Below are positions 21,744 to 60,371 of a DNA stretch of 64,000 bases, piece after piece. The notes below the pieces were generated by a model. The model was not told the DNA's origin and searched no databases. It saw nothing but the letters and a program-made list of their open reading frames with translations. A program made the translations under genes and the position numbers. Position 1 is the first letter of the stretch, and each line of letters begins with the position of its first letter. Source of the stretch: Parasaccharibacter apium (GTDB lineage: Bacteria > Pseudomonadota > Alphaproteobacteria > Acetobacterales > Acetobacteraceae); assembly GCF_002592045.1 (NCBI RefSeq), contig NZ_MEJG01000006.1, positions 1-64,000 of the forward strand, written 5' to 3'.

Positions 21744-21788
21744 GGATAAAATGCGCTTTAATATTTGCCCCCCTTTATGGAGGATACT

Positions 21789-22451: not shown

Positions 22452-22517
22452 GGCTGGCCCCCCAACCGCAAAAATCATACCATGTCTTACATTCAAACAA
22501 ATAATGGATGATTCATC

Positions 22518-22703
22518 ATGACCACCACTCCCCCCGCACCAGAACTTGTAGCGCGCCTTGTCTGCCCCCTTACAAAAGGGCCTGTCCATTATGATGCTGC
22601 GCGCAACTGCATCATCAGCCCCAAAGCGAAATTGGCCTTCCCCGTACGTGATGGCATCCCCGTCATGCTGCCAGAACACGCAACCCCCCTTGAGGAAAAC
22701 TAA
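22518..22703 (+). CDS. Trm112 family protein (YcaR-like)
   Basis: A 61-residue protein with the short signature [11 protein letters not shown], and the central [18 protein letters not shown] typical of the UPF0434/Trm112 family. In eukaryotes and archaea Trm112 activates several methyltransferases; the bacterial short form is less understood. Only one of the cysteines of a full zinc ribbon is present. It is the last gene of the ybbN-LON-Trm112 series; the next gene is convergent, 6 bp away. Confidence 0.9.
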
Positions 22704-22709
22704 GCGCTT

Positions 22710-23099: not shown

Positions 23100-23144
23100 T
23101 TCCACCTTATAGCATGTCTATGTGATTGACGAAGGCCCGCGAGC

Positions 23145-23810: not shown

Positions 23811-23818
23811 ACACTCCT

Positions 23819-24274
23819 TTATGGACTACGCGCTATATCTCGGATGAAGTCAAGAAGCTTCTGGCGGTGACGCTCGTCCTTGATACTGTAATAGGCCTTC
23901 GCGAGTTCCAATGTCTCGGGCATCATGAGCAACTCAATCTCACTACCCTCTTTTGCTTTTAAGGATACATCGCTCGTTTTCGATGCTTCCCCTTTTTGGA
24001 AAGGGGCTTGCTCCTCCTGTAACCCAACCTCTAGAGGAAGCGTAAAACTGTCCAACTCATCGAAAAAGAAACCAACTGGCACACCTAAGATTTTTGCCAT
24101 CTCATATAAGCGACCTGCACCGATACGATTTGTCCCGCGCTCATATTTTTGCACCTGCTGGAATGTAATGCCGAGTGCCTTCGCTAACTTCTCCTGCGAG
24201 AATTTCCGCAAGCCTCGTAAAAGGCGGATGCGTCTCCCAACATGCACATCAACAGATGAAGCCATACCAGCCAT
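23819..24274 (-). CDS. XRE-family transcriptional regulator
   Basis: A 151-residue DNA-binding protein whose helix-turn-helix (about 12-68) reads RLLRGLRKFSQEKLAKALG, ITFQQVQKYERG, NRIGAGRLYEMAKIL. The family is widespread in alphaproteobacteria and in many genomes lies beside lnt and metK; here lnt is upstream (toward 25916). The remaining C-terminal portion carries no recognised sensor domain. The start may be ATG 24274 or ATG 24265; neither has a good ribosome site. A short palindrome in its upstream region might be an autoregulatory site. Confidence 0.88.
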   Translation of the reverse strand: MAGMASSVDVHVGRRIRLLRGLRKFSQEKLAKALGITFQQVQKYERGTNRIGAGRLYEMAKILGVPVGFFFDELDSFTLPLEVGLQEEQAPFQKGEASKTSDVSLKAKEGSEIELLMMPETLELAKAYYSIKDERHRQKLLDFIRDIARSP

Positions 24275-24329
24275 CTCAACAACCCCGACAATAACAGGTA
24301 AACCAATTCCTTTTCGCGTAGTGGTTAGT

Positions 24330-24341
24330 AATTAGTTAATT
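24330..24341. promoter_or_regulatory. Palindrome upstream of the XRE gene
   Basis: AATTA-GT-TAATT is a perfect palindrome within an AT-rich patch (24324-24344) that also repeats TTAGT, 56 bp upstream of the XRE start. XRE regulators often bind such sites near their own promoters, but the match is short and could be chance in AT-rich DNA. Confidence 0.3.
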
Positions 24342-24389
24342 GTCAGGCTACGTCAATCTATTCCCCGAGTCGAAGGCTCGTTAATACCG

Positions 24390-25916
24390 TTATTCTGCCC
24401 ATTTTCGTCTATAATGCTCCACTATAGCGACCATACTCGCCATAAGAGCCAACATATAAGGGACTGAACGCCCCATTATAGAGAACAATGTCCATCCCTC
24501 TGCCGCTGGTAGAGGGCGGATCAATAATTGCTCTTTTCCCCAACGTGTATGGCCTACATCTCGGCCTCGTGCATCATAAAGAGCCGATATGCCACGGTTA
24601 TTAACAAATACCACAGGTAGCCCTTCTTCTACGGCCCTCATTCTTCCAGTAGCAAGGTGCTGCCGTGGCCCGGCACTATTACCATACCAAGCATCATTAG
24701 AGATCGTTAATAACCAATCTGGCCGCTGCCCGCGTGCAACAACACTGCCAGAAAATACGATCTCATAGCACACCATAGGGCCGACACGCCCCACAAGAGG
24801 TAGGTCCCATGTTTTTAATCCTGGTCCCGGCACAATAACTGCCGGTAATAGATGAAATGGTAGAACCCATGGTTCATATTCACCAAATGGAACGAGACGA
24901 CTTTTATCGTACATCGCCTCAATGTGCCCATCAACGGCCAGAGCTATCAAACTATTATACCAACGCCCTTTTCCCGCACGTCGGTCAGATCCTAATAAAA
25001 CTGGGGCACCTGCTGCTGCCACAGCAATAAGACGCCGCGCTTCCTCATCCTCATCTAACAAACCAGGGAATGCCGACTCAGGCCATACCACAACAGGCCT
25101 ATGTCCTGGCAAAATCGCCCGCGCCTCTGCCACACCTTTTGTCGTCAATTGTAAATACGACTCGAATTGCGCGTATGCCCCATCACGCTCCAGCACATCA
25201 TCTTCAGCAACATTGCCCTGCACAATAACAATGGCAGGATTAGAATGATCTGCTCGTACGATATTATGGTCGAGCCGCCATAGCCCCCACCCACACCATA
25301 ACCCCGCACAAACACAAACACTCGTGACAGCCCCTCGCCCTTGCCATAACGCCAAAGACGCCAGCACCACCATAAATGTAAGTCCATCTACCCCTATTAG
25401 AGCGGCGGGCTGAATCAACACATCTCCCACACGACCAGGTAGCTCCAATACGCTCCCTAAAGGATTCCACGGGAAACCAGAAAAATAGAATACACGGGCC
25501 ATATCAGCCAATGTCCAGCTCCCCGCAAACAGCAACATGCGCGGCCACCCCTCAGGGACCAACCGACATAAAAGAGCAGGAACCATAATCAAAGGGGCAA
25601 TCAACAACGCAACGCCGGGGGCGGCAAAAGGCACAACCCACCAAAACTCATGCACACGCGTCAACACGGCATTGGTCAGCCAATATAACCCTGCCGTGTG
25701 AAACCCCATCCCCAATAAAAAGCCCCACAAAGCAGCACGCCGCCATGTAGGGGCTACACAAACAGCCCGATAAAATAAGCCTAACGCCACAGGAAGAGCA
25801 GGAATAAAACAAAGTGGCGGCAAAGCTAATGCCGCTACACAGCCCATCCCCACCATAAATAGGGCACCGCGCCACCCTCCCTGTTGCGGTAGGGAACACA
25901 ATGCCTTCATCCTCAT
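24390..25916 (-). CDS. lnt: Apolipoprotein N-acyltransferase
   Basis: Inner-membrane enzyme that adds the third acyl chain to the N-terminal Cys of lipoproteins. The 508-residue product has an N-terminal multi-pass region (about 1-215) and a periplasmic nitrilase domain with the catalytic triad visible as Glu in VVWPESAFPG, Lys in YDKSRLVPFGEY and Cys in GPMVCYEIVFSG, then a final hydrophobic segment near the C-terminus. Length is usual. It lies in the same-strand series fur-olsB-lnt-XRE. Several lipoproteins and lspA elsewhere in the window are its expected substrates and partner. Confidence 0.96.
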   Translation of the reverse strand: MRMKALCSLPQQGGWRGALFMVGMGCVAALALPPLCFIPALPVALGLFYRAVCVAPTWRRAALWGFLLGMGFHTAGLYWLTNAVLTRVHEFWWVVPFAAPGVALLIAPLIMVPALLCRLVPEGWPRMLLFAGSWTLADMARVFYFSGFPWNPLGSVLELPGRVGDVLIQPAALIGVDGLTFMVVLASLALWQGRGAVTSVCVCAGLWCGWGLWRLDHNIVRADHSNPAIVIVQGNVAEDDVLERDGAYAQFESYLQLTTKGVAEARAILPGHRPVVVWPESAFPGLLDEDEEARRLIAVAAAGAPVLLGSDRRAGKGRWYNSLIALAVDGHIEAMYDKSRLVPFGEYEPWVLPFHLLPAVIVPGPGLKTWDLPLVGRVGPMVCYEIVFSGSVVARGQRPDWLLTISNDAWYGNSAGPRQHLATGRMRAVEEGLPVVFVNNRGISALYDARGRDVGHTRWGKEQLLIRPLPAAEGWTLFSIMGRSVPYMLALMASMVAIVEHYRRKWAE

Positions 25917-25941
25917 GATGGGGAACCCCTATTAACTGCTC

Positions 25942-26886
25942 TTAATCTAACGCGTCCCGCAGACGACGCTCATAATGCCGATAATATTTATCAGCCAATA
26001 ACTCGCTCTTTACCAAAATAGCAACGTCGGTCGTATTAAATTGCTCATCAACAACAGCACCATCCCCGACATAACCACCCAGGCGTAAATACCCCTTAAT
26101 AAGGGGAGGAAGCTTGCTTAAACAACGACGACGATCCAACGTTGTAGGGTCCGTCCGTAACATAGTTACGTAACGCTCTGGCAATGCCTTTACCCGTAAT
26201 ACGGGGGGAGCCAGATGATTATGATACAGCCATGTTAATTCCTCATCCATGCTCTCTGGAGCGGTACCGGGCAAACTGGCACAGCCAAAAAGAACATCAA
26301 TCCGATGGAGGAAGATATAAGACGCAATACCGCGCCACAGCAGTTGCATCGCTGCCCGACTACGATATTCACGCGCAACACAGGAGCGTCCCACCTCCAA
26401 TAGACGCCCTGGGAAGTCCGTCAAACATGAAATATCGTATTCATCTGCTGTGTAGAACCGATCCTTCGGGCCGAGCAGATCAGAGCGCAATAAGCGATAC
26501 GTCCCCACAACAGCCGGCGCACGATCACTCCGCGCGTGATCGACCACAAGGAGATGATCAGCAATTTCATCAAACTTATCGGCATCCAAGCGAGTCTTTA
26601 ACGCTTGTTCACTGGGATGTGCGCCCATTTCCTCAAAGAAAACACGGTAACGTAAGGCTTGTGCGGCGCGAATTTCCTCTTCACTCGTCGCTAAACGAAC
26701 CCCTAAATTCCCGCCTCGTAATTCCTGAAAGCCACCATCACGATTTAACGCCAGCGTCGCCAACGTATCCATCTGTCGCCGCGTTCTCTCACTGCTGACA
26801 AAACCGCTAACGCGTCCCCCTACTGCACGAGCAGGAGAGATGGCTTCCACAGCTATATCACGATCAAGCACACTCTTTCCGGTCAT
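25942..26886 (-). CDS. olsB: L-ornithine N-acyltransferase (OlsB-like)
   Basis: Transfers a 3-hydroxyacyl group from acyl carrier protein to ornithine, the first step to ornithine membrane lipids. The 314-residue product is of the hemolysin/OlsB acyltransferase type: YRVFFEEMGA, the catalytic-region HLLVVD, GTYRLLR, LEVGRSCVAREYR and the late FGCASLPGT. OlsB is usually about 290 residues; the N-terminal about 40 residues may be partly non-essential. It starts 7 bp after the Fur-family gene ends, so they are probably co-transcribed. Acetic acid bacteria often make ornithine lipids. An olsA partner is not in the window. Confidence 0.85.
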   Translation of the reverse strand: MTGKSVLDRDIAVEAISPARAVGGRVSGFVSSERTRRQMDTLATLALNRDGGFQELRGGNLGVRLATSEEEIRAAQALRYRVFFEEMGAHPSEQALKTRLDADKFDEIADHLLVVDHARSDRAPAVVGTYRLLRSDLLGPKDRFYTADEYDISCLTDFPGRLLEVGRSCVAREYRSRAAMQLLWRGIASYIFLHRIDVLFGCASLPGTAPESMDEELTWLYHNHLAPPVLRVKALPERYVTMLRTDPTTLDRRRCLSKLPPLIKGYLRLGGYVGDGAVVDEQFNTTDVAILVKSELLADKYYRHYERRLRDALD

Positions 26887-26892
26887 ACGAAA

Positions 26893-27408
26893 CTACTTAC
26901 CCCTATGCCCGGTCTGAGTAACATTGGAAGGTGCAGATGCCTTTTTATCACCATTAATGCGCCGTCCAAACAACTCAGCGCGATGGGACATAAGGTCAAA
27001 ACCCAACTCAGCGGCAATCCTTGCCAGCAACCCTACCAGCTCATCATTCTCAAATTCGATCACATTACCACTATCAACATCTATAAGATGGTAATGGTGC
27101 CCGTTTTCACTTGCCTCGTAGCGCGCGCGGCCTCCACCAAAATCCCGCCGCTCTAAAATCCCTTTCTCTTCTAACAAGCGTACTGTCCGATACACAGTCG
27201 CTACAGAGATGCGACTATCTAATGCAGATGCACGGCGGTACAGTTCCTCCACATCAGGATGGTCCTCCGCCTCCGACAAAACGCGCGCAATTACGCGCCG
27301 CTGGCCTGTCATTTTTAAGCCATGCTTGACGCAAAGACGCGCAATGGGGGAATCCCCCACTACGCCATCGGGCGTTTCAGTCTCACGCCCCATCTTTTTT
27401 GTGCTCAT
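26893..27408 (-). CDS. Fur-family transcriptional regulator
   Basis: Metal-dependent repressor of about 171 residues. The winged-helix region includes LKMTGQRRVIARVL and ISVATVYRTVRLLEEKG; the metal segment reads ENGHHYHLIDVDSGNVIEF. The usual HHDH of Fur is HHYH here and the zinc CxxC pair is absent, as in many alphaproteobacterial Fur/Mur proteins. It may respond to iron, manganese or haem (Irr); the sequence does not say which. Start ATG 27408 (or 27414). Immediately followed by olsB and then lnt on the same strand. Confidence 0.88.
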   Translation of the reverse strand: MSTKKMGRETETPDGVVGDSPIARLCVKHGLKMTGQRRVIARVLSEAEDHPDVEELYRRASALDSRISVATVYRTVRLLEEKGILERRDFGGGRARYEASENGHHYHLIDVDSGNVIEFENDELVGLLARIAAELGFDLMSHRAELFGRRINGDKKASAPSNVTQTGHRGK

Positions 27409-27532
27409 CACCATACTGATGATCTACCCGATTATGATACGGTTTGTCCAACATACATCACAACCGGGACCGGCACCCTCCTTTTATTTCTCAACCAGCT
27501 TAAATTTCCTACAGGAATAACCCGGTAAGTTT

Positions 27533-27952
27533 TTACTGGCTGCTGCTCTCATCACGACGACGCCCTAAACCAATACGCCGTGCCAAAGATGAACGATGGT
27601 TAGCATAATTTGGAGCAACCATTGGGTATTCCGCTGGTAAACCCCACCGCTCCCGATATTCCTGAGGGGTCATGTTATACGCTGTTTTAAGATGGCGGCG
27701 CAGTAACTTCAGCTTTTTACCATCCTCAAGACAAATAATGTAATCTGGGAATACCGACTTCCGCGGCGGTACTGCCGGTACAGGTTTTTCTGGCTCTACT
27801 TCAGTCGGAAGCCCTGCACTAGCTAATGCACCATGAACGGACCGAACAAGATCGGGCAATGCCTCAGAGGCGACATCATGACTACTTACATAAGCGGTAA
27901 TGATCTGTGCTGTAAGCTGGCGCAGATCCTGCATTTCTGTCTCAGACGACAT
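27533..27952 (-). CDS. MucR/Ros-family transcriptional regulator with degenerate zinc site
   Basis: A 139-residue global regulator of the MucR/Ros family, which binds AT-rich DNA and controls exopolysaccharide, motility and virulence genes in alphaproteobacteria. The DNA-binding domain runs from about 68 to 130: ICLEDGKKLKLLRRHLKTAYNM then TPQEYRERWGLP and YPMVAPNY. Relative to Ros (Cys79, Cys82, His92, His97), Cys74 and His87 are kept but Asp77 and Tyr92 replace the other two ligands, as in some Mesorhizobium homologues shown to fold without zinc. The ATG at 27952 follows TAGGAG by 10 nt. A long AT-rich leader lies upstream. Confidence 0.9.
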   Translation of the reverse strand: MSSETEMQDLRQLTAQIITAYVSSHDVASEALPDLVRSVHGALASAGLPTEVEPEKPVPAVPPRKSVFPDYIICLEDGKKLKLLRRHLKTAYNMTPQEYRERWGLPAEYPMVAPNYANHRSSLARRIGLGRRRDESSSQ

Positions 27953-28390
27953 AAATAGTTGACTCCTAAGAAATTTATTCACGTTTATACCTTACTATAG
28001 GAAAAATACAACAAGGAAAAATTCCTTTTCCCTAATAGTTACAGCCTATTGCTAACATAGACCTGCTAACCCGTTTATAAAATGCTCAACATCAATAAAA
28101 ATTACATTGTAAAGCTGTTATATTCCCCCTTATATATCATACCACGACACTCTATCGGGGAATGTTTTACGCTTTCTATTTGTTAATTATTTATTAACCT
28201 ATATATTATTTCCTATTCCCTGCTTTTATATAATAAACATTCGCCCTATGCACCTATGATACATAGGGAAACTCTCCAACTTATGGCTGTTAACGCAAGG
28301 AGGACGTATAGTTCTTTAATTCTTATTAACTACGCACAAAGAAACCTTATAACCCTCAAAGAATTTATCGAGTCATCTTACAGAAAATTA
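27953..28390. promoter_or_regulatory. AT-rich 438-bp intergenic region upstream of the MucR-like gene
   Basis: No convincing gene is present. Base composition is strongly AT-rich with many TA steps (for example TTAATTATTTATTAA near 28180-28197 and TATATTATTT near 28201), unlike the flanking coding DNA. It includes the inverted repeat CCCTATG (28244-28250) / CATAGGG (28262-28268). MucR proteins are known to bind AT-rich, TA-step-rich DNA and to control their own genes, so this is the natural candidate for its promoter and autoregulatory region. A 41-codon ORF at 28283 was considered and rejected. Confidence 0.55.
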
Positions 28391-28918
28391 CTATTTTGTA
28401 TCGGGTAAAAACCTTAAAAGGCGAGCGTCCTCACCATCATCATAATAGCATGATCGTATCGCTACCTGTTGAAACCCTGTCTGTTCGTACAAAAGACGCG
28501 CTTTATGATTCCCGCGCCTTACTTCTAAGAACAGAGTTATTCCTTCATCGTGCGCTCTTTGAACGAGGTGTCCTAACAAATGTCGTGCTACCCCACGTCG
28601 CCGCCAATGAGGATGAACGCCAAGGCTTAAAATCTCCCCTTCATCCAACACAAAGCGGCACACTATAAAACCTACCGGTAATGCCTCTGCTGGCTCTTCC
28701 TCAGCTATTTGATAAGCCTTAATGCAAACAAGCCAGGCTTCCACACCCGGCATTGTTAAAACCTGCTCAAACGCTGTTTGCGTCCAAGGCTCATGCCCCG
28801 CAAAAGCAGCATGATGTAAGCTTGATAAAAGGGGCGCGGCCTCCACACTTACTTGTGTGAGTGTAAAGATCGCTTCCTCTTTGCCAGCATAATTCAACAC
28901 AGTGTCTTTTTGTCGCAC
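28391..28918 (-). CDS. rimI: Ribosomal protein bS18-alanine N-acetyltransferase RimI-like
   Basis: A 175-residue GNAT acetyltransferase with the acetyl-CoA signature RRRGVARHLL, the LFLEVRRGNHKARLLYEQTGF segment and a final LRFLPD, which together match the RimI group that acetylates N-terminal Ala of ribosomal protein S18. GTG start at 28918, two bases after the tsaB stop. The tsaB-rimI adjacency is common in alphaproteobacteria and supports the call. It is the last gene of the nfu-rutE-tsaB-rimI run before the AT-rich region. Confidence 0.85.
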   Translation of the reverse strand: MRQKDTVLNYAGKEEAIFTLTQVSVEAAPLLSSLHHAAFAGHEPWTQTAFEQVLTMPGVEAWLVCIKAYQIAEEEPAEALPVGFIVCRFVLDEGEILSLGVHPHWRRRGVARHLLGHLVQRAHDEGITLFLEVRRGNHKARLLYEQTGFQQVAIRSCYYDDGEDARLLRFLPDTK

Positions 28919-43309: not shown

Positions 43310-43855
43310 TTATCCATGATGTGACCGCCTCTCTACCAAGAAAGAATCAAGCAGCCACAGCCCAACACCACACACAATGGCCGAATCTGCAATATTAAAA
43401 ACATACCAAGACCATTGCCCAATATGGAAATGGAGAAAATCCACCACAGCCCCGTAACGTAGGCGGTCAATCACATTCCCAATCGCCCCGCCAATAATCC
43501 CACCACAGGCAACACTTACCAACCGGCGGCGCGAACGTGCCAGCACACATAACAGCCCCAGTACAGCTAAAGCCGAAATGATGATAAACACCCATCGCCC
43601 ATGCCCCCCAAACATGCCGAAGGTCACAGCGTGGTTCCACACCATCGTAAAATTAAGCCAGGGGAAGATCACAACACTCCGTTTTGCAGGGAGGTCTAAT
43701 CCCTGTAAAATCCATGCCTTACTGATTTGATCCACCAATAAGACGAGCAAAGCGACCACCACCCCAACACGCCGCCAACGCGGCGTAGGTTGAGACGTCA
43801 CAGGCGAGGAAGCCTTCGCCTCATTCTGAGGCTCCGGCCCGGTTGGGGACATCAT
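43310..43855 (-). CDS. lspA: Lipoprotein signal peptidase (signal peptidase II)
   Basis: Inner-membrane aspartyl protease that cleaves prolipoproteins after diacylglyceryl addition. The 181-residue product has four membrane segments and the conserved elements LVDQISKAWI, WNHAVTFGMF, GGAIGNVIDRLRYGAVVDF (first catalytic Asp) and FNIADSAIVCG (second catalytic Asp). A 25-residue hydrophilic N-terminal extension precedes the first helix. The start overlaps the ileS stop by four bases (ATGA). It is followed by a DUF3035 lipoprotein gene. Confidence 0.97.
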   Translation of the reverse strand: MMSPTGPEPQNEAKASSPVTSQPTPRWRRVGVVVALLVLLVDQISKAWILQGLDLPAKRSVVIFPWLNFTMVWNHAVTFGMFGGHGRWVFIIISALAVLGLLCVLARSRRRLVSVACGGIIGGAIGNVIDRLRYGAVVDFLHFHIGQWSWYVFNIADSAIVCGVGLWLLDSFLVERRSHHG

Positions 43856-46888: not shown

Positions 46889-47818
46889 TCAAGCCCTTGC
46901 GGCAAGAACCTCCCGCGCTTGGGCGGCATCAAGAGCGATTTGCCTTTTGAGGTCATCCAAAGAGGCAAAGCGTTTCTCTTCTCGCAAAAGAGCAAAAAGC
47001 TCTACTTTTAATATCTGACCGTATAGGTCCCCATCAAAATCAAAAAGATGCGCCTCTAGGCGACTTTCCTGCCCATCATCAATCGTTGGGCGGCGGCCAA
47101 TATTCGCCACACCTGGGAAAACGCGCCCACCAGGAAGATGCACCTGCACCGCATAAACACCCCGTGCAGGCTCAATATGATCGCCTAACGCAATATTAGC
47201 TGTTGGGAAGCCCAGCGTCCGTCCACGCTGGTCCCCTTTAACAACTTCCCCCGTAATGGCCCAATTACGCCCTAACAATTCTGCCGCTTTCTCTGGATAA
47301 CCCTCTTGCAACAAACGACGAATACGACTGGAAGAAATTGGCCCCGCTGCATCAGCCAGAGGGGGAACGATACTCACACCAACGCCATGAGCCACCAACA
47401 ACCGCTCCAACAATACCACATCGCCTTCTCGCCTATGGCCAAAAGCGAAGTCTGCCCCACACGCCACATGAGCCACATGTAGCCCGTCAATCAACACGTC
47501 ACGGACAAAAGCTTCCGCCCCTAAATGGGAGAACGCATTATCAAAACGTGCTTGTACAACGCAACTTACCCCTTGCTCTTCTAACGCACGGGCACGTACC
47601 TCCGGGCGCATAAGCCTAAAGGAGGGGTCCTGCGGACGAAACAAAGAACGCGGGTGTGGCTCAAATGTTAAAACCCCAACCCGATACCCCGGCCGAGCCA
47701 TCTTCAAACTCTGCATCAGATGGACATGGCCACGATGCACGCCATCAAAGTTACCCAGAGCAACCGCGGCTCGCCAGCAGGAGCGCGGCACAGCTCGCCA
47801 GTTTTTGCAGAAGATCAT
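46889..47818 (-). CDS. ribF: Bifunctional riboflavin kinase/FAD synthetase
   Basis: Converts riboflavin to FMN and FAD. The 309-residue product has an N-terminal nucleotidyltransferase domain with GNFDGVHRGHVHL and SSSRIRRLL-type ISSSRIRRLLQEG, and a C-terminal kinase domain with RGRTLGFPTANI and GVYAV. Length matches the family. ribF-ileS-lspA is a conserved order in proteobacteria. The flavins produced serve the many flavoproteins in the window (Dld, ThyX, the GMC subunit, the nitroreductase). Confidence 0.96.
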   Translation of the reverse strand: MIFCKNWRAVPRSCWRAAVALGNFDGVHRGHVHLMQSLKMARPGYRVGVLTFEPHPRSLFRPQDPSFRLMRPEVRARALEEQGVSCVVQARFDNAFSHLGAEAFVRDVLIDGLHVAHVACGADFAFGHRREGDVVLLERLLVAHGVGVSIVPPLADAAGPISSSRIRRLLQEGYPEKAAELLGRNWAITGEVVKGDQRGRTLGFPTANIALGDHIEPARGVYAVQVHLPGGRVFPGVANIGRRPTIDDGQESRLEAHLFDFDGDLYGQILKVELFALLREEKRFASLDDLKRQIALDAAQAREVLAARA

Positions 47819-51196: not shown

Positions 51197-51233
51197 CCCC
51201 CCTGATCTGCTCCTTCAGACAGGGGTGTTTTCC
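51197..51233 (+). terminator. Hairpin with T-run upstream of argD
   Basis: CCCCTG-A-TCTG pairs with CAGA-CAGGGG around the loop CTCCTT (one bulged A), followed by TGTTTTCC. It lies 65 bp after the hydrolase stop codon and 61 bp before the argD start, so it may terminate the hydrolase transcript or act as an attenuator for the arg genes. Confidence 0.55.
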
Positions 51234-51293
51234 GTTGGATTAACGGAGAATACGCTATGTGGTGTTATATCTAAGTCGGGGAACGCGTCCATC

Positions 51294-52469
51294 ATGATCG
51301 CCTCCATCATGCCGAATTATAAACGCTTCGACCTTGCTTTTAAGCATGGCGAAGGCCTCTGGCTTACAAGCACAAATGGACGACGTTATCTTGATTTCGG
51401 CGCGGGGATTGCCGTCTCCTCCCTCGGCCATAGCCACCCTGCCCTTGTCGAAGCGATTACCGCACAAGCAAAGAAGCTCATCCATGTCTCCAACCTCTAT
51501 CAGGTGCTGCAAGCAAAAGCCTTAGCGGACCTGCTCGTAGCCCATAGCTTTGCGGATTCCGTCCTCTTTTGTAACTCTGGGGCGGAAGCGAATGAGGGGC
51601 TGATCAAGCTTATCCGCCGGGCGCAATATAAAAACGGCCATCCTGAACGCACGCGGATTATCTGCTTTCATCACGCCTTCCATGGTCGGACATTAGCGAC
51701 CATCTCCGCCACGGGAAATCCCGCTTATTTGGAAGGTTTCGGCTCCCCCGTAGAAGGGTTTGACCATGTCCCCTTTAACGATATTGACGCCGTCCGTGCA
51801 GCGATCACAGACAAGACCGCTGGCATCCTCATAGAGCCTGTCCAAGGGGAAAGTGGCATCCGTGCTGCAGAGCCTGCGTTCTTACGCGCTTTACGCGCTC
51901 TTTGTGATGAAAAAGGGCTGTATTTAGGGATTGATGAGGTCCAAAGTGGGATGGGCCGTACCGGTACATTCTTTGCTTTTGAACATGCTGGCATTACGCC
52001 AGATGTCGTCTCCTCTGCCAAAGGGATTGGCGGGGGCTTCCCCCTTGGGGCTGTTTTAGCCCGTGCAGATTTAGCCCAGCATCTCACCCCCGGCACGCAT
52101 GGCACAACCTATGGGGGGAACCCGCTGGCCTGTGCAGCGGGCTTTGCTGTCGTCAGCGAAATCCTCCGCCCCGGCTTCCTAGAGCATGTCCGCACAACAG
52201 GCGCAGCTTTTGGGAAAATGCTCGAGGCTTGTGTTACAGACCATCCCTCCATTTTTGAGGAAGTACGCGGCATTGGGCTGATGCGGGGTTTGCGGTGCCG
52301 CATCCCTGTAGGGGAGGTGCTTGAGGCTGTTATGGCAGAAGGGCTCCTCGCCATCGGGGCGGGCGATAATGTATTGCGCCTCGTCCCCCCCCTCATCGCC
52401 ACAGAAGCAGATTGCGCGGAGGCTTGCACCCGCATCGGGCGTGCAGCTCACGCCCTAAGCAACCAATAA
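51294..52469 (+). CDS. argD: Acetylornithine aminotransferase
   Basis: PLP enzyme that aminates N-acetylglutamate semialdehyde to N-acetylornithine. The 391-residue product shows NSGAEANEGLIKL, HHAFHGRTLATIS, GIDEVQSGMGRTG and the PLP lysine in SSAKGIGGGFPLGA, all typical class III aminotransferase features of ArgD. I chose ATG 51294 from family alignment; an upstream frame to 51225 overlaps the leader. argF follows by 13 bp. Confidence 0.95.
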   Translation: MIASIMPNYKRFDLAFKHGEGLWLTSTNGRRYLDFGAGIAVSSLGHSHPALVEAITAQAKKLIHVSNLYQVLQAKALADLLVAHSFADSVLFCNSGAEANEGLIKLIRRAQYKNGHPERTRIICFHHAFHGRTLATISATGNPAYLEGFGSPVEGFDHVPFNDIDAVRAAITDKTAGILIEPVQGESGIRAAEPAFLRALRALCDEKGLYLGIDEVQSGMGRTGTFFAFEHAGITPDVVSSAKGIGGGFPLGAVLARADLAQHLTPGTHGTTYGGNPLACAAGFAVVSEILRPGFLEHVRTTGAAFGKMLEACVTDHPSIFEEVRGIGLMRGLRCRIPVGEVLEAVMAEGLLAIGAGDNVLRLVPPLIATEADCAEACTRIGRAAHALSNQ

Positions 52470-52482
52470 GGAGAGCAGTAGC

Positions 52483-53451
52483 GTGAGCAACGATTATACC
52501 TCATCCCCTCGGCACTTCCTGGATATTAAGGACCATTCCACCGAGACATTGCGCCATATTCTGGACCTTGCGGCCCATATCAAAGCTCTACAGCAAGAGC
52601 GCAAACGCCCTCTCTGCCCTGGTCTGCCATTAGCCGGACGTGCTTTGGGGCTGATGATGTCCCGCCCCTCCACCCGCACGCGTGTCTCTTTTGAGGTGGG
52701 GATGAAGCAGCTTGGCGGGACGGTTAATGTCCTCTCCCCTGCGGATATGCAGCTTGGCCGGGGCGAGAGCATTGCCGATACGGCGCGTGTCCTCTCCCGT
52801 TTTTTGGATGTTATCACCCTCCGCACGGGGACAGATGCTAACCTTCGGGAGCTTGCCCGCTGGAGTGATGTGCCCGTCATTAACGGGCTAACGCCAGTCT
52901 CCCATCCTGTGCAGATTTTGGCCGATATTCTCACTTTTGAGGAACATCGCGGCTCCATTACCGGCAAAAAACTAGCTTGGATTGGCGATGGCAATAACGT
53001 CGCCACCTCCATGATTGAGGCCGCCGCACGGCTAGGCTTCTCCCTGCATCTCGCCACACCAGAAGGGGAATTTATGCCCTCTGAGACGGCTGTAAACTGG
53101 GCGCGTGCGCAGGGCGGTGATATTCAACTCACTCACGACCCGCGCGAGGCTGCCGCGGGGGCTGATGCCATCATCACCGATACATGGGTCAGCATGGGGG
53201 ATAAAGATGCTGAAAAACGCCATCAAATCTTCCGCCCTTATCATGTTGATGAAGCCCTCATGGCTCTTGCCGCGCCGGAGGCCCTGTTTATGCACTGCTT
53301 GCCTGCCCATATAGGGGAGGAAGTCAGCAAGGCCGTGTTTGAAGGCCCGGCCTCTGTTGTGTTTGATGAGGCAGAAAACCGCCTACATGCCCAAAAGGGA
53401 TTGCTGCTCTGGTGCTTGGGGGAAGATGACCTCTCCGCTTATCAGGGCTGA
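52483..53451 (+). CDS. argF: Ornithine carbamoyltransferase
   Basis: Forms citrulline from ornithine and carbamoyl phosphate. The 322-residue product has the carbamoyl-phosphate motif SRPSTRTRVSFE, the HPVQILAD region and the ornithine-binding HCLPAHIGEEV. GTG start at 52483 preceded by AAGGAG. It is coupled to argD and probably the same transcript; a double hairpin separates it from hslO. Confidence 0.97.
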   Translation: MSNDYTSSPRHFLDIKDHSTETLRHILDLAAHIKALQQERKRPLCPGLPLAGRALGLMMSRPSTRTRVSFEVGMKQLGGTVNVLSPADMQLGRGESIADTARVLSRFLDVITLRTGTDANLRELARWSDVPVINGLTPVSHPVQILADILTFEEHRGSITGKKLAWIGDGNNVATSMIEAAARLGFSLHLATPEGEFMPSETAVNWARAQGGDIQLTHDPREAAAGADAIITDTWVSMGDKDAEKRHQIFRPYHVDEALMALAAPEALFMHCLPAHIGEEVSKAVFEGPASVVFDEAENRLHAQKGLLLWCLGEDDLSAYQG

Positions 53452-53501: not shown

Positions 53502-54488
53502 ATGACAAACCCGGTGACAGAAACCACCCCTACAGCCACGACCCGCCCGCAGGATGTACCAGACCTAACGGTTGCCCATGCGATTACGCCCTTCCATCTC
53601 GGCCATGTGCCTGTTCGAGGGCGATTAATTACGCTTGGGCCGTTGGCTGATGCCATCCTCTCCCGCCATGATGAACTTCCAGAGCCTGTGCGCGCCCTTG
53701 GAGGCCAAGCCCTTGCCTTGGTAGCGGCTATGGCAACGGCTTTAAAGTTTAAAGGCTCCTTCTCCCTACAAGTTAAAGGCGATGGACCGGTCTCGCTCTT
53801 TCTGGCCGATTGCACCGATACAGGGGCGTTGCGCTTTACCGCCCGCATGGCAGAGGACTACACCACCCCCCTGCCTGAAACCGCTCCGGGCTTGCTTGGC
53901 AAGGGGTATCTGGCCTTTACAGTGGACCAAGGGCCAGAGACGGAGCGTTACCAAGGGATTGTTGGGCTAGAGGGTAAAGACCTCGCCGACATGGCGACGC
54001 ACTACTTTCAAACCAGTGAGCAACATGATTGTGCCATCCAACTTTTCTCCCGCTTAACAGAGAGCGGGTGGCAAGCGGGGGCGTTGGTGTTAGAGCGTCT
54101 GCCCGATAGCGACCCCGTTGCCGGTAATGATGACCAGCAACATTCCGAGGCGACCATCCAAGACCTCTGGGAGACGGCTTGCACCTTTGCTCATACCCTA
54201 AAAGCGGATGAATTATTTGACCCTGCTCTTTCAGCCTCTACCCTTATCACAAGGCTCTTTGGCACATTGGGGGTAGAGCTTGCCCCGGCGAGGCCGCTCT
54301 CCTTTGGGTGCCGCTGTAGCCGTGCCCGCCTGCAAGGGGTGTTAGAGCGTTTCAGCACGGATGACCTTGACCATATGGCCCAAGATGGGGTGATTTCTAT
54401 GGAATGTCATTTCTGCAACACGGCCTTCACCTTCCCTCGTGATAGCCTTACGCATCATACAAACACACTCTCTGCCGAGACGCCATGA
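53502..54488 (+). CDS. hslO: Redox-regulated chaperone Hsp33
   Basis: Holdase activated by oxidative unfolding. The 328-residue product has the N-terminal core (VAAMATALKFKGSFSLQVKGDGPV) and the C-terminal zinc switch CRC...CHFC (FGCRCSRAR and MECHFCNTAF). All four cysteines of the CxC-X27-32-CxxC pattern are present. Preceded by argF and followed, with a 4-base overlap (ATGA), by an unrecognised gene. Confidence 0.96.
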   Translation: MTNPVTETTPTATTRPQDVPDLTVAHAITPFHLGHVPVRGRLITLGPLADAILSRHDELPEPVRALGGQALALVAAMATALKFKGSFSLQVKGDGPVSLFLADCTDTGALRFTARMAEDYTTPLPETAPGLLGKGYLAFTVDQGPETERYQGIVGLEGKDLADMATHYFQTSEQHDCAIQLFSRLTESGWQAGALVLERLPDSDPVAGNDDQQHSEATIQDLWETACTFAHTLKADELFDPALSASTLITRLFGTLGVELAPARPLSFGCRCSRARLQGVLERFSTDDLDHMAQDGVISMECHFCNTAFTFPRDSLTHHTNTLSAETP

Positions 54489-55567
54489 CGGCAGCACACC
54501 CCGCAGAACTCCACCGCAGAGGCCAACCTCTTACAGGGCTTTATCCCGGCTGGGAAATGGGCCAGCGTATTTCTGGCCCTGCGGGTATGGACATCCTAAT
54601 CCTTCAGCATCCCCGCACCAAAGAAGAGGCCTATTGGTGGCTCTCCCCCGATGGCGAGATTTTAGCCTGCCATGCTCTCGCCCTAAGGGGGACATGGCAA
54701 GAGGCCCTCGTCAAAACATTAGACCCTGTCCTCCAACCCCTTAGTGCAAGCCTGCTTGATGGGGCTGCTCCCCTTCCCTCTGAAGATGATCTTTTAAACG
54801 AACCTCTTCCCCTTCTACGCGCTCTTCCTGCACCCGCACGTTTGCAACTGGTGACGTTATGGTTCCAAACCGCGCGAGCGGCGATGCATGTTATCTCTCT
54901 TACAGCCCTCTTAGAGCATGAAAATGAAAGCCCTTTTCCCCCCGCCTTCATCCAAAAGCTATTCCGCACACGTCTAGCCGGGCCGCATAGTCTGGCCTGC
55001 TCCCCCTTTAATGGGGACATTATCCGTACAGAGCTGACAATCACTTTAGAGCAAGGCATAGCATGTCGCTTTACTGACCCACAGGAAGAACTCACCTTTT
55101 ATCTCTTCTGGCCACATGGGGATGAAGGCAACACCTCTCCCGAGACCATTCCACCCATTTTCTACCTTCCCAAAGCCTCACTATTAGTCGGGGAGGGACT
55201 CTTTACCCCGTTAGTACCTACTTTTCTTCTCTCATGGTTTATAGGGACACCACATTGTGTTGAAGAGCTCAAACAAGCCCGCCCCTTCACGCTAGAGGAT
55301 TACGGCGTTGGCCATGCCTCTGCCTTATGGGACAATCTTTCCTCCCCGAAAAAAACAACCGAACGCGGGAAGGCTGGACAAATACTCTCTTCTTTCCCAT
55401 TCTCCTCTCTATTATGGGGACAGGCCGCTTTTCTGCGACCTCTAGGAGAGACGCCCTTTACCCCTTTAGAGGATGAGATACACAACAAACCAACGCAGAA
55501 ACGGGCCCAAAAGCCCTATCAACCTCGTAAGAAGAAACGTAAAAAAGGACGGAAACGCCGCTCATGA
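54485..55567 (+). CDS. Protein of unknown function, basic C-terminal tail
   Basis: A 360-residue protein that I do not recognise. It has no signal peptide, and no clear membrane helix. It has a mid-protein region of Trp/Phe-containing segments (AYWWLSPDGEIL, LTFYLFWPHGD, PTFLLSWFIGTPH) and ends in an extremely basic tail (RKKKRKKGRKRRS). Cysteines are few and scattered. Its start overlaps the hslO stop by four bases (ATGA) and its stop overlaps the next gene by four bases (ATGA), so all three are translationally coupled. Codon use is not obviously foreign. Function could relate to the chaperone or to the lipoprotein; nothing in the sequence decides. Confidence 0.75.
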   Translation: MTAAHPAELHRRGQPLTGLYPGWEMGQRISGPAGMDILILQHPRTKEEAYWWLSPDGEILACHALALRGTWQEALVKTLDPVLQPLSASLLDGAAPLPSEDDLLNEPLPLLRALPAPARLQLVTLWFQTARAAMHVISLTALLEHENESPFPPAFIQKLFRTRLAGPHSLACSPFNGDIIRTELTITLEQGIACRFTDPQEELTFYLFWPHGDEGNTSPETIPPIFYLPKASLLVGEGLFTPLVPTFLLSWFIGTPHCVEELKQARPFTLEDYGVGHASALWDNLSSPKKTTERGKAGQILSSFPFSSLLWGQAAFLRPLGETPFTPLEDEIHNKPTQKRAQKPYQPRKKKRKKGRKRRS

Positions 55568-56328
55568 CCATTACACGCTTTGCCCCCCTCTCGCGCTTAT
55601 GGCCTTGTTTGGCTCTCCTCTTCGGGCTGGCTCTCTTAACAGGCTGTGCGCATGATGAAGGTAATGAGACCTTCCCAAAAGCTGATTATAGCTATCTGCC
55701 ACCACTAAATCTAAATGTCAGCCAGATCACAATCACTAGTCAAATCCAACCGAATTATGACGATTTAACCGCACGAAGCCCCAACAACCCCGAGAGTGAC
55801 CTCCAGCTCATGGCGCGTCAGAGATTACACACAACGGGAACGTCCGGCTCAGCGCAATTTATCGTCACGCAAATCGAGATGACAAAACTCTCTCATCATA
55901 GTTTTAGCGGGACTTATGGCGTAAAGCTCACACTGGATGACCCAACCCATCAACGCCATGGCTTTATCACCGCACGCGTCCATCGCACCATTGAGGCCCC
56001 CGGCTCTTATAGTCTGGAGCGTGACCTCCACACGCTAAACACGGCCCTCATGGATGATATGAATGTCGAGCTGGAATATCAGGTCCGCAATCATCTTGCC
56101 TCTTGGTTGACTGACGCCACCGGTACGCCGCTAAATGCCACTACCGTCCAAAGCCAAGACCTCTCTAGTACAGAACTCCCCGCGTTGGAGGGCAGCGCAC
56201 AACAACATGCCCCCCTCAACACCACGGCTCCTGCTGCCCCTCACCCCACTTCCACAACATATGAGAGCACAACACCGACAAAGTTCCATTCCCCACCGCC
56301 GGGTGTTCTCTCCCTACCACAACATTAA
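55564..56328 (+). CDS. Lipoprotein of unknown function
   Basis: A 254-residue predicted lipoprotein: signal LALLFGLALLTGC (lipobox TGC at about Cys28), then a mature domain with a repeated beta-rich character (AQFIVTQIEMTKLSHHSFSGTYGVKLTLDD) and a Pro/Thr-rich low-complexity C-terminus. I recognise no family; similar proteins appear only as hypothetical in related bacteria as far as I can judge. Its start overlaps the preceding gene (ATGA), linking it to hslO and the unknown gene. Confidence 0.72.
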   Translation: MTITRFAPLSRLWPCLALLFGLALLTGCAHDEGNETFPKADYSYLPPLNLNVSQITITSQIQPNYDDLTARSPNNPESDLQLMARQRLHTTGTSGSAQFIVTQIEMTKLSHHSFSGTYGVKLTLDDPTHQRHGFITARVHRTIEAPGSYSLERDLHTLNTALMDDMNVELEYQVRNHLASWLTDATGTPLNATTVQSQDLSSTELPALEGSAQQHAPLNTTAPAAPHPTSTTYESTTPTKFHSPPPGVLSLPQH

Positions 56329-56344: not shown

Positions 56345-56402
56345 TAAGGTGAGTATATGACAGCAGATTCACTTGTATTCTGCGAAGATTTTGCTCACCT
56401 TA
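56345..56402 (+). promoter_or_regulatory. Large imperfect hairpin in the leader of the membrane dehydrogenase operon
   Basis: TAAGGTGAG (56345-56353) and CTCACCTTA (56394-56402) are perfect 9-base reverse complements. The 40-nt interior has a second inner stem, GCAGA with TCTGC. No T-run follows, so it is not a standard terminator, and it sits 47 bp before the start of a gene with almost no ribosome site. It may be a regulatory leader or the end of the lipoprotein transcript. Confidence 0.45.
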
Positions 56403-56448: not shown

Positions 56449-57231
56449 ATGACGTCATCCCCCTCTCACCCCACTGCTCCATCCCGTACTGCGTTATCGC
56501 GGCGGGGATTTATAAGGGGGACTGGTGCGCTTTCTGGCTCATCATTACTAAGCCATGCAGCCCAAGCCCGTGCTGACTTAAAGACCCAGCAGGCCAGAAA
56601 AGCAGAGAATGATCCCGCCCGTTATGTGCCGCGTTTCTTCACAGCGGAGGAATATCGCTTCCTCTGCCATGCCTGTGAGCGGATTTTCCCAGAAGATGAA
56701 AATGGGCCCGGTGCATTAGCCTTAGCTGTACCGCGTTTTATTGATAAACAAATGCAAACCCCTTACGGGCAAGGGGACCTCTGGTACCTTCACCCCCCAT
56801 TTGGCAATGGTCCACCAGAACTCGGCTACCAACTTCCCTACGGCCCGCAAGAGCTGTATCGCCGTACGATCGAACCTATTAATACCCATTGTTTGATGAC
56901 CTATAACGCCCTCTTTGCAGACCTCACCACCACACAGCAAGATGAGGTTCTTCATAAACTTGAGGACGGCGTCTTACAGTTTAATGATATTCCCGGGGCT
57001 GTCTTTTTTGAGCAATTACGCACCAATACGTTAGAAGGTGCCTTTGCCGACCCCCTCTATGGCGGTAATGACGCTATGGGGGGATGGAAGATGATGGGCT
57101 TCCCCGGTGCGCGGGCCGATTTTATGGATTGGGTCAACCAGCAAGGGGCCCCTTATCCGCTTGGCCCTGTTGGTATGCCCCCTAATGTTGCCCCCTATGG
57201 CCCTGATGCGCTTCATGATGAGGAAGATTAA
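56449..57231 (+). CDS. Membrane dehydrogenase small subunit (gluconate 2-dehydrogenase subunit 3 family)
   Basis: A 260-residue periplasmic partner of a flavocytochrome dehydrogenase. It begins with a twin-arginine signal (SRRGFIRGTGALSG, residues about 18-31), so it is exported folded, probably carrying the GMC subunit along. The rest (FFTAEEYRFLCHACERIFPED, DPLYGGNDAMGGWKMMGFPG) is the typical gluconate 2-dehydrogenase subunit 3 family. First of three genes in the order small-large-cytochrome c, as in gndSLC and kgdSLC of acetic acid bacteria. The start has a poor ribosome site. Confidence 0.9.
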   Translation: MTSSPSHPTAPSRTALSRRGFIRGTGALSGSSLLSHAAQARADLKTQQARKAENDPARYVPRFFTAEEYRFLCHACERIFPEDENGPGALALAVPRFIDKQMQTPYGQGDLWYLHPPFGNGPPELGYQLPYGPQELYRRTIEPINTHCLMTYNALFADLTTTQQDEVLHKLEDGVLQFNDIPGAVFFEQLRTNTLEGAFADPLYGGNDAMGGWKMMGFPGARADFMDWVNQQGAPYPLGPVGMPPNVAPYGPDALHDEED

Positions 57232-57237
57232 CCACGC

Positions 57238-59031
57238 ATGACAGACCACGTTACACCACCTAAAAAGCCAGATGTTCTCATCATCGGGGCTGGCTGGGCT
57301 GGCAGCATCATGGCAAAAGAGCTAACCGAGGCTGGCCTGCATGTTACCATGCTAGAGCGCGGGCATGACCATAGCACGGCCGTAGAAGGTGCGTATCCTG
57401 AATCGATTGATGAATTACGCGGGGCGATACGCAAGCGTCTCTTCCAAAAACTCGCGCGCACTTCTCTGACCATTCGCAACCATCCCACCCAAACAGCCCT
57501 TCCCTACCGCCAACTTGCCGCCTTTCTTCCCGGCGAGGGCGTAGGCGGGGCCGGGCTGCATTGGTCAGGCTGTCACTTCCGCACCACAGAGGATGAACTG
57601 CGCCTCCGTAGCGTAACACAAGAGCGATATGGGCGTAACTTCATCCCAGATGGCATGTTCTTACAAGATTATGGGGTGAGCTATCAGGAGCTAGAACCCT
57701 TCTTCGATAAAGCCGAGAAAGTTTTCGGTACAGCAGGAGAGGCCTCCTCCGTACGAGGGCAAGCTACAGGCGGCGGAAATATTTTTGCGCCTGATCGTTC
57801 CGACCATTTCCCACTACCTCCACTGGCTGATACTTTCTCAGCCAGCCTGTTCCGCAAAGCCGCAACCGAGGTTGGGTTTCACCCTTACAGCATGCCTGCT
57901 GCTAATGCCTCCCAGCCTTACACCAACCCATATGGCTGCCAGATGGGGCCGTGCAATTTTTGCGGTTATTGCAGCGGTTATGATTGTTATCTCTATTCCA
58001 AAGCGTCCCCGAATGTGAACATCCTCCCCGCCCTGCGGCAGGATAAACGCTTCACCCTCATCACACAGGCGCAAGTGTTGGAAATCCTCTTAGATGATGA
58101 CCGCAAGACCGCCACAGGCGTACGGTATATTGACCTCACAACACAATCCGAACAGACAATGCAGGCTGACCTCGTCATACTGAGTGCCTTCCAGCTCCAT
58201 AATGTTCATCTCATGCTCACCTCAGGCATTGGCCAACCTTATGACCCAGTAACGCAAACGGGGGTGATTGGCCGTAACTTCACCTATCAAACCATTACCT
58301 CTTCCCGCGTTTGGCTGCCTAAAACGCACTTTACCAACCAATTTGTTGGCGCTGGCGGCGGGGGTGTTGCCATTGATGACATCAACCATCCCGGCCTAGA
58401 CCGTGGGAAAGCGGGCTTTATTGGTGGCTCACCCATTTGGGTAAACCAAGCAGGGACAAAACCCATCAATGCCGCCCTTAGCAGTGGTGGCAAGGGCGCA
58501 CCCCGCTGGGGACACGCTTATAAAACAGCCATGATTGACCAATATCGCCACTCTCTCAGTATTGATGCCCATGGCAGCAATATGGCTTATCGCGATGTGT
58601 ATTTGGACCTCGACCCCACATGGCGCAACGCTTATGGCCAACCCATGTTACGCATGACCTTCACATGGAAGGAGAACGACATCCGCATGAATCAATATGC
58701 CGTCCAGCATATTGGTCAGATCGCCAAAGCCATGGGGGCCACTAAGATTGCCCTCAATAGCCTCCAACATGGCCAGAACTTTGATAGCCGCCTCTACCAA
58801 ACCACGCACCTTAATGGCGGGGTTATCATGGGGGAAAACCCCAAAACCAGTGCGGTGAACCGTTATCTACAAAGTTGGGATGTCTCTAATCTCTTTGTCA
58901 TTGGCTCTAGCGCATTTCCCCAAGGGTTAGGCTATAACCCCACCGGGCTGGTGGCCGCGCTGGCTTATTGGTCGGCTTACCATATCCGCCATACTTACCT
59001 CCGTAACCCCGGCCCTATGGTAACCGCATGA
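57238..59031 (+). CDS. Membrane dehydrogenase flavoprotein subunit (GMC oxidoreductase)
   Basis: A 597-residue FAD subunit of a periplasmic sugar-acid/sugar-alcohol dehydrogenase. The Rossmann motif GAGWAGSIMAKELTEAG begins at about residue 18; GEGVGGAGLHWSGCHFRT, the GPCNFCGYCSGYDC cluster-type Cys segment and GYNPTGLVAALAYW at the C-terminus match the gluconate 2-dehydrogenase flavoprotein group. D-gluconate, 2-ketogluconate and sorbitol are all possible substrates; the sequence alone does not separate them. It follows the small subunit by 6 bp and overlaps the cytochrome gene by 4. Confidence 0.93.
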   Translation: MTDHVTPPKKPDVLIIGAGWAGSIMAKELTEAGLHVTMLERGHDHSTAVEGAYPESIDELRGAIRKRLFQKLARTSLTIRNHPTQTALPYRQLAAFLPGEGVGGAGLHWSGCHFRTTEDELRLRSVTQERYGRNFIPDGMFLQDYGVSYQELEPFFDKAEKVFGTAGEASSVRGQATGGGNIFAPDRSDHFPLPPLADTFSASLFRKAATEVGFHPYSMPAANASQPYTNPYGCQMGPCNFCGYCSGYDCYLYSKASPNVNILPALRQDKRFTLITQAQVLEILLDDDRKTATGVRYIDLTTQSEQTMQADLVILSAFQLHNVHLMLTSGIGQPYDPVTQTGVIGRNFTYQTITSSRVWLPKTHFTNQFVGAGGGGVAIDDINHPGLDRGKAGFIGGSPIWVNQAGTKPINAALSSGGKGAPRWGHAYKTAMIDQYRHSLSIDAHGSNMAYRDVYLDLDPTWRNAYGQPMLRMTFTWKENDIRMNQYAVQHIGQIAKAMGATKIALNSLQHGQNFDSRLYQTTHLNGGVIMGENPKTSAVNRYLQSWDVSNLFVIGSSAFPQGLGYNPTGLVAALAYWSAYHIRHTYLRNPGPMVTA

Positions 59032-60371
59032 CCCATATCTTCCGCACTCCCTTTTATGCGGCACTTTATGCAGCATTAGGGCTGCTTGCCATTTTTTCCT
59101 CCCCCCTCACCATAGCTCGAGCAGACACCTCCATACCGCCTGCTTTGCTAGAGGAAGGCCATTATCAAGCTATCCTCGGCGATTGCGCTGCCTGCCATAC
59201 AGCACCGGGCCGCCCTGATTATAGCGGGGGCTTACCCTTTGAGCTGCCCATCGGCACGATTTATTCAACCAATATTTCGCCAGATCCTGTTCATGGCATT
59301 GGCCGTTATAGCGAGGCAGAGTTTGCCCGCGCTGTCCGGCTTGGGGTGCGTAAAGATGACTCCACACTTTATCCCGCTATGCCGTACCCCTCCTATGCGC
59401 GGCTAAGTGATGCGGATATCCACGCGCTTTATGTTTATTTTCAACATGGTGTGGCCCCTCAAGCGATAGCACCACCAGAGAATAAAATTAAATGGCCGCT
59501 CTCTATGCGTTGGCCGCTACGCGTTTGGCGGTGGCTCTTTGCCCCTAGCATTCGCTATGCCCAGCAACGCACCAATAGCCAATTCACCGACCCAACCTTG
59601 GCACGAGGGGCCTATCTTGTCGAAGGGCCGGGCCATTGCGGGGCCTGCCATACACCACGCGGCATCGCACTGAATGAAAAGGCCCAAACAGCCCAAGATG
59701 GCCCGCTCTTTCTCTCCGGCGGTGGGGTTGTAGAACAATGGGTTGTCCCCTCCCTGCGGCAAGAAAATCGCACCGGCCTAGGCCGTTGGAGTGAGCAAGA
59801 TATTGTGGACTTCCTCCGTACTGGTCGCGCTCGCCCCGGTGCCAGCTTCGGAGGCATGACGCCTGTTGTCATCCACAGCACCTACGCATTTACAGATAAC
59901 GACCTCCACGCGATTGCGCGCTATTTACGCACACTAAGCCCCGCCCGCCCAGAAGCCCCTTGGGTTTATGACCCAAGCACGGCAGACGCCCTACGCCGGG
60001 GTGATATCACCCAACCCGGCGCACAAACTTATCTAGACCGCTGCGCAGCTTGCCATCGCAGCGATGGGGCTGGTTATGGCACGGTCTTTCCCCCTCTAGC
60101 AGGGAACCCTGTCGTGATGACGGATAATCCCACCTCGCTCATCCATATCATCCTCGCGGGCGAGACAATGCACCCCCTCCCTACCGCGCCCTCTGCCTTT
60201 ACAATGCCCGCTTTTGGCGATGCGCTCTCTGACAAAGAGGTCGCAGAGCTTGTAAGCTTCATCCGCCATAGTTGGGGCAATCACAGCAGCAGCGTTAGTG
60301 AGGATAAAGTCCGGCGGCTTCGCCAGCAGATTGCTCACCCCACCGTGCCCCCCATCTTACCGAAAAACTAA
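59028..60371 (+). CDS. Membrane dehydrogenase cytochrome c subunit (three haem c)
   Basis: A 447-residue triheme cytochrome. An N-terminal membrane signal segment (about 8-31) precedes three CxxCH sites: CAACH (residues 53-57), CGACH (204-208) and CAACH (339-343). This is the standard arrangement for the C subunits of gluconate, sorbitol, fructose and alcohol dehydrogenases, which pass electrons from FAD to ubiquinone at the outer face of the inner membrane. Overlaps the flavoprotein gene (ATGA). No cognate maturation genes are nearby. Confidence 0.95.
   Translation: MTHIFRTPFYAALYAALGLLAIFSSPLTIARADTSIPPALLEEGHYQAILGDCAACHTAPGRPDYSGGLPFELPIGTIYSTNISPDPVHGIGRYSEAEFARAVRLGVRKDDSTLYPAMPYPSYARLSDADIHALYVYFQHGVAPQAIAPPENKIKWPLSMRWPLRVWRWLFAPSIRYAQQRTNSQFTDPTLARGAYLVEGPGHCGACHTPRGIALNEKAQTAQDGPLFLSGGGVVEQWVVPSLRQENRTGLGRWSEQDIVDFLRTGRARPGASFGGMTPVVIHSTYAFTDNDLHAIARYLRTLSPARPEAPWVYDPSTADALRRGDITQPGAQTYLDRCAACHRSDGAGYGTVFPPLAGNPVVMTDNPTSLIHIILAGETMHPLPTAPSAFTMPAFGDALSDKEVAELVSFIRHSWGNHSSSVSEDKVRRLRQQIAHPTVPPILPKN

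Follow-up and report, generated by a model that had tools for sequence, protein, structure and literature searches.

The described systems closest to the locus analysed here are the lipoprotein LptE (PF04390), the small periplasm-facing lipoprotein PqiC of the ABC_trans_aux family (PF03886) and the redox chaperone Hsp33, which is the product of hslO. The locus lies in a 64,000-nucleotide stretch of the Parasaccharibacter apium contig NZ_MEJG01000006.1 (positions 1 to 64,000, called the window at its full length), where hslO is followed by a gene for a 360-residue protein, here named ORF360 (ORF, open reading frame), and then by a gene for a 254-residue lipoprotein. This lipoprotein is like LptE in its lipobox, its size, an order of strands and helices read by eye, and a weak profile and fold resemblance, but it differs in gene neighbourhood and gives no PF04390 or HMMER match. 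With PqiC it shares the character of a small lipoprotein facing the periplasm; however, it has no Pfam match, and its profile resemblance to PqiC once signal peptides are removed is not convincing (HHalign P 0.05 and 0.019). HslO is encoded by the adjacent gene and has its switch cysteines intact, with no homology to, or evidence of interaction with, either of the proteins that follow it. ORF360, finally, is related to unannotated Acetobacteraceae proteins of about 640 residues (L131-L133, L137 and L139), whose N-terminal 270 or so residues are homologous to it by profile comparison. These longer proteins carry a conserved second domain (GLRxENRT, DGHN, SHGE and WGAxLAKYRW) whereas ORF360 ends without it, and no hslO match was found on the short loci examined for them.

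Our survey establishes that the lipoprotein represents, in its Acetobacteraceae form, a family that extends across the Alphaproteobacteria and is usually placed behind argD-argF-hslO. A 35-row profile matched 146 of 289 alphaproteobacterial genomes, and hslO was found in 197 of the same set. Both genes occur in 124 genomes, the lipoprotein only in 22, hslO only in 73 and neither in 70, which gives an odds ratio of 5.4 (Fisher p 6.7e-10) in a comparison that ignores kinship and includes some incomplete genomes. Among 101 placed pairs drawn from the 124 genomes with both genes, the lipoprotein gene lies directly 3' of hslO in 84, within 2.1-2.9 kb of it in 4 and elsewhere in 13. For example, Azospirillum brasilense Sp 7 has the gene order argD-argF-hslO-lipoprotein. 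A plasmid search with the lipoprotein of locus L085 found seven Azospirillum replicons, and the gene is unannotated in both of the two that were inspected; the same search with the L060 lipoprotein gave no match. In a sample of the phylum, 11 of 299 genomes matched the lipoprotein and all 11 belong to the same class (the share of the 299 that lies outside this class is not shown).

Closer to the window, the lipoprotein was present in 35 and ORF360 in 14 of 60 genomes searched, the window's own genome and those of its relatives. The 35 neighbourhoods fetched from relatives include three that are cut by contig ends (L053, L057 and L068) and one, L074, in which the lipoprotein was positioned from the genome search. 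At all 32 uncut loci the lipoprotein gene shares the strand of hslO and lies downstream of it; ORF360 sits between the two in 11, and in the remaining 21 the gap from hslO to the lipoprotein is -17 to 230 bases. The lipoprotein and ORF360 are therefore not an equal pair, as their spreads differ. An earlier note on this DNA had seen both genes as coupled to hslO, and a survey of the hslO neighbourhood does not separate them from it in close relatives. Across the class the lipoprotein is a neighbour of hslO, with its 84 of 101 placements, and ORF360 is interposed only in part of the Acetobacteraceae.

The same note had suggested that this coupling marks a stoichiometric or stress-related link to HslO. 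A redox or stress relay of ORF360 and the lipoprotein with HslO would fit the tight spacing within the genus as well as the class-wide adjacency and co-occurrence of the lipoprotein with hslO. However, a fixed stoichiometry is not supported, in view of the 22 of 146 lipoprotein-bearing genomes that lack hslO and the 73 of 197 hslO-bearing genomes that lack the lipoprotein. Co-occurrence is thus not obligate, as an Hsp33 redox partner would need, in this set of 289 genomes, some of them incomplete. In two genomes, G037 and G132, there is no hslO match and the lipoprotein gene is still behind argF. Additionally, the only cysteine of the window's mature lipoprotein is the one that anchors the lipid, so that no free cysteine remains, the conserved block also holds argD, argF and dehydrogenase genes, and ORF360 is missing from the 21 uncut loci described above. 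We consider a relay of this kind very improbable.

The conserved block comprises a D-aminopeptidase-like gene, argD, argF, hslO, ORF360, the lipoprotein and a three-gene gluconate-dehydrogenase-like set, and it is kept whole in eight members of the genus and in three other genera, each represented by one genome. In NZ_JANIDW010000005.1 (Bombella saccharophila) ORF360 is 100% identical and the DNA of the block is 96-99.8% identical, which marks the genome of the window as similar to that of this species. Since this synteny spans unrelated metabolic genes on both sides, it is by itself no proof of a functional pair. The three genes and their two ATGA overlaps, as reported in the earlier note, were recovered at the positions listed in Table 1, and the double arrangement is not conserved within the genus. 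The spacing from hslO to ORF360 is -4 in eight of nine genus members measured, the window counted, while a -4 spacing from ORF360 to the lipoprotein is clear for the window and its nearest relative alone; for the other seven our script placed the lipoprotein start 23 bases within ORF360, and another candidate start is at 14. Two further 4-base overlaps in the list of window ORFs (43852-43855 and 59028-59031) indicate that overlaps of this kind are not rare here.

Both ORFs are conserved and have low ratios of nonsynonymous to synonymous divergence (dN/dS) in five pairs of relatives, 0.05-0.34 for ORF360 and 0.10-0.22 for the lipoprotein, and hence behave as genes. Neither gave a credible match in Pfam, NCBIfam, PDB sequence profiles, PHROGs or PADLOC, in agreement with the earlier view that both are unrecognised. 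Matches to OB_POT1A, RatA-like and SsuC models in Pfam and NCBIfam (E 0.01-1) were taken as chance, and no paper listed in searches of the literature open without subscription appeared to treat either protein family.

ORF360 was matched in 29 of 150 genomes in a family-wide search and was found only in Acetobacteraceae; in the 289 class genomes, of which only 4 are listed as Acetobacteraceae, its profile found none outside the window's own genome. The strong matches (L113-L130) have hslO upstream in 18 of 18 loci and the lipoprotein downstream in all except L119, where the contig ends, and thus ORF360 lies between these two genes at every strong-match locus that is not cut. Two divergent copies, L135 and L136, occupy the same position. 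The remaining weak matches fall on the N-terminal halves of proteins of about 640 residues or on pieces of such proteins in broken or cut frames. An hmmsearch gave 2e-14 to 2e-9 for the five full-length relatives named above, and a 21-row alignment has W51 and P229 in every row, with W23, S173, P174, R195, D198, F205 and Y206 nearly invariant. By these comparisons ORF360 is homologous to the N-terminal module of the longer proteins. Polysaccharide genes stand beside the longer proteins in four of seven neighbourhoods; two of the seven come from one genome (G026). The genes in these four (L239, L242, L243 and L244) encode GT2, GT92, RmlD, GDP_Man_Dehyd, NTP_transferase or a xylose-isomerase-like protein. 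The longer proteins may have a glycosyltransferase-like second domain; neither ORF360 nor its relatives gave a credible match to a glycosyltransferase family in Pfam or the PDB. Locus L240 carries genes of the 640-residue family in tandem.

The extremely basic tail that the earlier note had singled out is present in ORF360 of the window, where 12 of the last 18 residues are lysine or arginine, and it proved to be an oddity of one clade and not a feature of the family. At the loci examined, ORF360 has the polybasic end in the window, in its nearest relative and in L080, which encodes an identical ORF360, and in no others. In L046-L052, seven further members of the genus, the end is acidic and contains histidine, and that of L053 is proline-rich. 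In other genera 13 of 19 loci with complete tails end in [FLVW][FLMIW]xR[LI], mostly with further basic residues (as in LLGRLRSLVRKK and WWQRLFGLGR), and six have unrelated ends. A nucleic-acid- or ribosome-binding role for ORF360 would fit the polybasic end of the window protein. The ends of the seven genus members and the motif of the other genera oppose it, as does the failure of ORF360 to match an RNA-binding family, and we regard such a role as very improbable.

ORF360 might also be a gene for defence or surface variation that evolves fast and is exchanged among species. Between the window and the nearest species (G009) synonymous divergence (dS) is 0.04 in hslO and 1.36 in ORF360, and at the border of the two genes DNA identity falls from 99.8% to 68%, a divergence that looks like recombination. 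The pattern is not special to ORF360, however, because other stretches of the window are equally mosaic in comparison with this species (20700-28918, 46889-47818 and others), with dS above 1 in many ORFs amid otherwise nearly identical sequence and a median of 0.09 over 53 window ORFs. Exchange for defence or surface variation is also at odds with the low dN/dS of ORF360. A defence or phage origin was not supported, as PADLOC gave no match and PHROGs no credible one. We therefore judge this explanation to have hardly any claim.

The lipoprotein of the window carries the lipobox LTG ahead of C28, which identifies it as a bacterial lipoprotein. Two related class members, L147 and L150, no longer have the lipobox cysteine and resemble secreted proteins. 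The class-wide consensus, from an alignment that excludes L177, closes with a long helix-like stretch (RSRTVPEDATLNERE...LMKDLDAELE). For HHalign, 95 of 104 rows were kept in the lipoprotein profile, eight having failed a strict lipobox pattern and one the length requirement, and some genomes are represented twice. With signal peptides left in, P was near 5e-6 to both LptE and PqiC, and because the PqiC alignment was confined to the signal peptide these peptides were removed. The mature profile then matched the LptE of relatives with P 2.8e-4 and probability 41 over 111 columns, and P 3.6e-4 when family rows were added. Reversed LptE gave 0.12 and 0.29, and the best decoy, the lipoprotein profile against its own reverse, 2.5e-3. 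LptE was thus the best among the few families and decoys compared, with PqiC, HslO, ORF360 and reversed profiles all at least 0.0025. PF04390 matched neither the window lipoprotein nor any of the 35 aligned members.

Fold searches with a low-confidence structure model offer no more than hints. Among the best 50 Foldseek rows the top two probabilities were those of 3bf2 (0.60), which we take to be an LptE structure, and of the LptE chain 5iva_B (0.44), both with E above 0.1. In VIA-align, chains that are LptE, some presumably so, recur in rows 29-50 (Z 4.0-4.8) over residues of about 50-189, although Z values of this size may reflect only a common arrangement. Taken together, these comparisons, all weak, suggest that the mature domain resembles LptE most among the few families compared. 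The lipoprotein as the LptE of this genome, or its replacement, was ruled out by a separate lipoprotein, L231, which adjoins holA (on C3 at about 160 kb) and matches the profile of relatives' LptE at 1.4e-38. L231 has a long C-terminal extension and was missed by the Pfam LptE model while the profile of relatives found it.

Behind the lipoprotein domain, much of the Acetobacteraceae has a linker of low complexity. The pattern S[PQ].?[PA][GH].L..P, which was written after the tails had been inspected, occurs in the last 60 residues at 26 of 29 loci with ORF360 (all except L053, L135 and L136) and at 1 of 22 without it, and shuffled tails gave a mean of 0.01 matching loci in each set. With a stricter pattern, set before this one, the counts were 17 of 29 and 1 of 22. 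The set without ORF360 includes L068, where hslO is outside the fetched stretch and the status rests on the genome search alone. A search of the window's genome for the tail motif with one strict DNA pattern gave two hits, one at the lipoprotein gene itself and the second in another frame of a channel-like gene.

Whether these arrangements have any functional content must be weighed against inherited position, with the lipoprotein and ORF360 doing unrelated housekeeping and ORF360 not linked to glycans at all. Synteny that covers unrelated genes favours inherited position, as do the diverse neighbours of the lipoprotein away from the argDF-hslO block (judged by eye) and the relatives of ORF360 without an assigned family. 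The exact interposition of ORF360 at every uncut strong-match locus and the tail motif that accompanies it speak for something more. Inheritance of position is a serious contender to which we would give a chance somewhat short of even.

Our own reading, held tentatively and with clearly less than even confidence when taken as a whole, is that hslO is followed by envelope genes and not by redox partners; envelope functions as such are likely for both proteins. The mature lipoprotein domain would have the LptE-like layout of a strand, a helix, three strands and a long helix, and would assist outer-membrane assembly or transport as an accessory that faces the periplasm. The form in acetic acid bacteria would carry a long flexible linker that ends in an SPxPGxLxLP peptide and probably docks through it on a partner. 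ORF360 may be a cytoplasmic adaptor without catalytic activity that serves envelope glycan work, anchored to the inner membrane in many species by its short C-terminal tail, which is polybasic here. Close gene spacing would then provide shared expression, with HslO a neighbour and not a subunit.

A number of results weigh against this envelope reading. The window lipoprotein has no match to an HMMER profile of relatives' LptE (E 0.69), and its resemblance does not imply the role of LptE, which this genome encodes separately. Models predicted from single sequences were poor, with a predicted local distance difference test score (pLDDT) of 45.6 for the lipoprotein and 40.6 for ORF360, for which no fold is claimed; Foldseek matched nothing to the lipoprotein model at E<=0.001, and the first 28 VIA-align rows (Z 5.0-6.8), ahead of LptE, are all actin capping protein. 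Clade membership would explain the association of tail motif and ORF360 as well as function does. ORF360 and the lipoprotein are in different compartments, which excludes simple mutual binding. Helical moments of the ORF360 tails are not clearly above composition shuffles (among the 13 tails with the motif, the fraction is 0.06-0.42 in 12 and 0.89 in L122), so that membrane binding is a guess from the motif. Additionally, the 640-residue proteins, second domain included, have no credible Pfam or PDB match that would mark them as enzymes, and among the few proteins scanned in L240, L241 and L245 there was no polysaccharide gene.

A bolder form of the envelope reading is that the lipoprotein is a second LptE-fold outer-membrane assembly lipoprotein of the Alphaproteobacteria, coupled in acetic acid bacteria to an ORF360 module and a tethered docking peptide as a two-sided system for envelope glycan assembly; we regard this as unlikely. 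About half of the sampled alphaproteobacterial genomes carry the lipoprotein, yet no model for it was found in Pfam, NCBIfam, PHROGs or PADLOC. If it were an LptE-like envelope factor, it would represent an extra component of outer-membrane biogenesis in a class to which plant-associated bacteria such as Azospirillum belong, as do the acetic acid bacteria. Through its relatives ORF360 leads to a family of large proteins without an assignment, several of which are encoded in polysaccharide loci.

Table 1. Features of the hslO locus, with positions as numbered in the window.
Feature	Position	Strand	Remarks
hslO (Hsp33 redox chaperone)	53502..54488	+	PF01430 3e-60; switch cysteines C270, C272, C302, C305 intact
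ORF360, 360 residues	54485..55567	+	cytoplasmic; inspection by eye showed no signal peptide; related, as a stand-alone protein, to the N-terminal half of unannotated proteins of about 640 residues
Lipoprotein, 254 residues	55564..56328	+	unnamed alphaproteobacterial family; mature domain of putative LptE-like order
ATGA overlap hslO/ORF360	54485..54488	+	4 bases
ATGA overlap ORF360/lipoprotein	55564..55567	+	4 bases; clearly kept in the nearest relative (L045) alone
Polybasic C-terminal tail of ORF360	55511..55564	+	12 lysine or arginine in 18 residues; clade-specific
Lipobox L-T-G-C28 of lipoprotein	55636..55647	+	cysteine invariant in 35 aligned rows
C-terminal motif SPPPGVLSLP of lipoprotein	56290..56319	+	closes a Pro/Ala/Thr-rich linker
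argD and argF, conserved upstream neighbours	51225..53451	+	

A scan of the locus for promoters and terminators gave matches only at the level of shuffled sequence. An inverted repeat of 8 bases without mismatch (AAGGTGAG / CTCACCTT), its arms 40 bases apart, lies at 56346-56401, between the lipoprotein and dehydrogenase genes. Downstream of the lipoprotein gene, at 56449-60371, are genes for gluconate 2-dehydrogenase subunit 3, a GMC oxidoreductase and a cytochrome c, the last two of which overlap by 4 bases.

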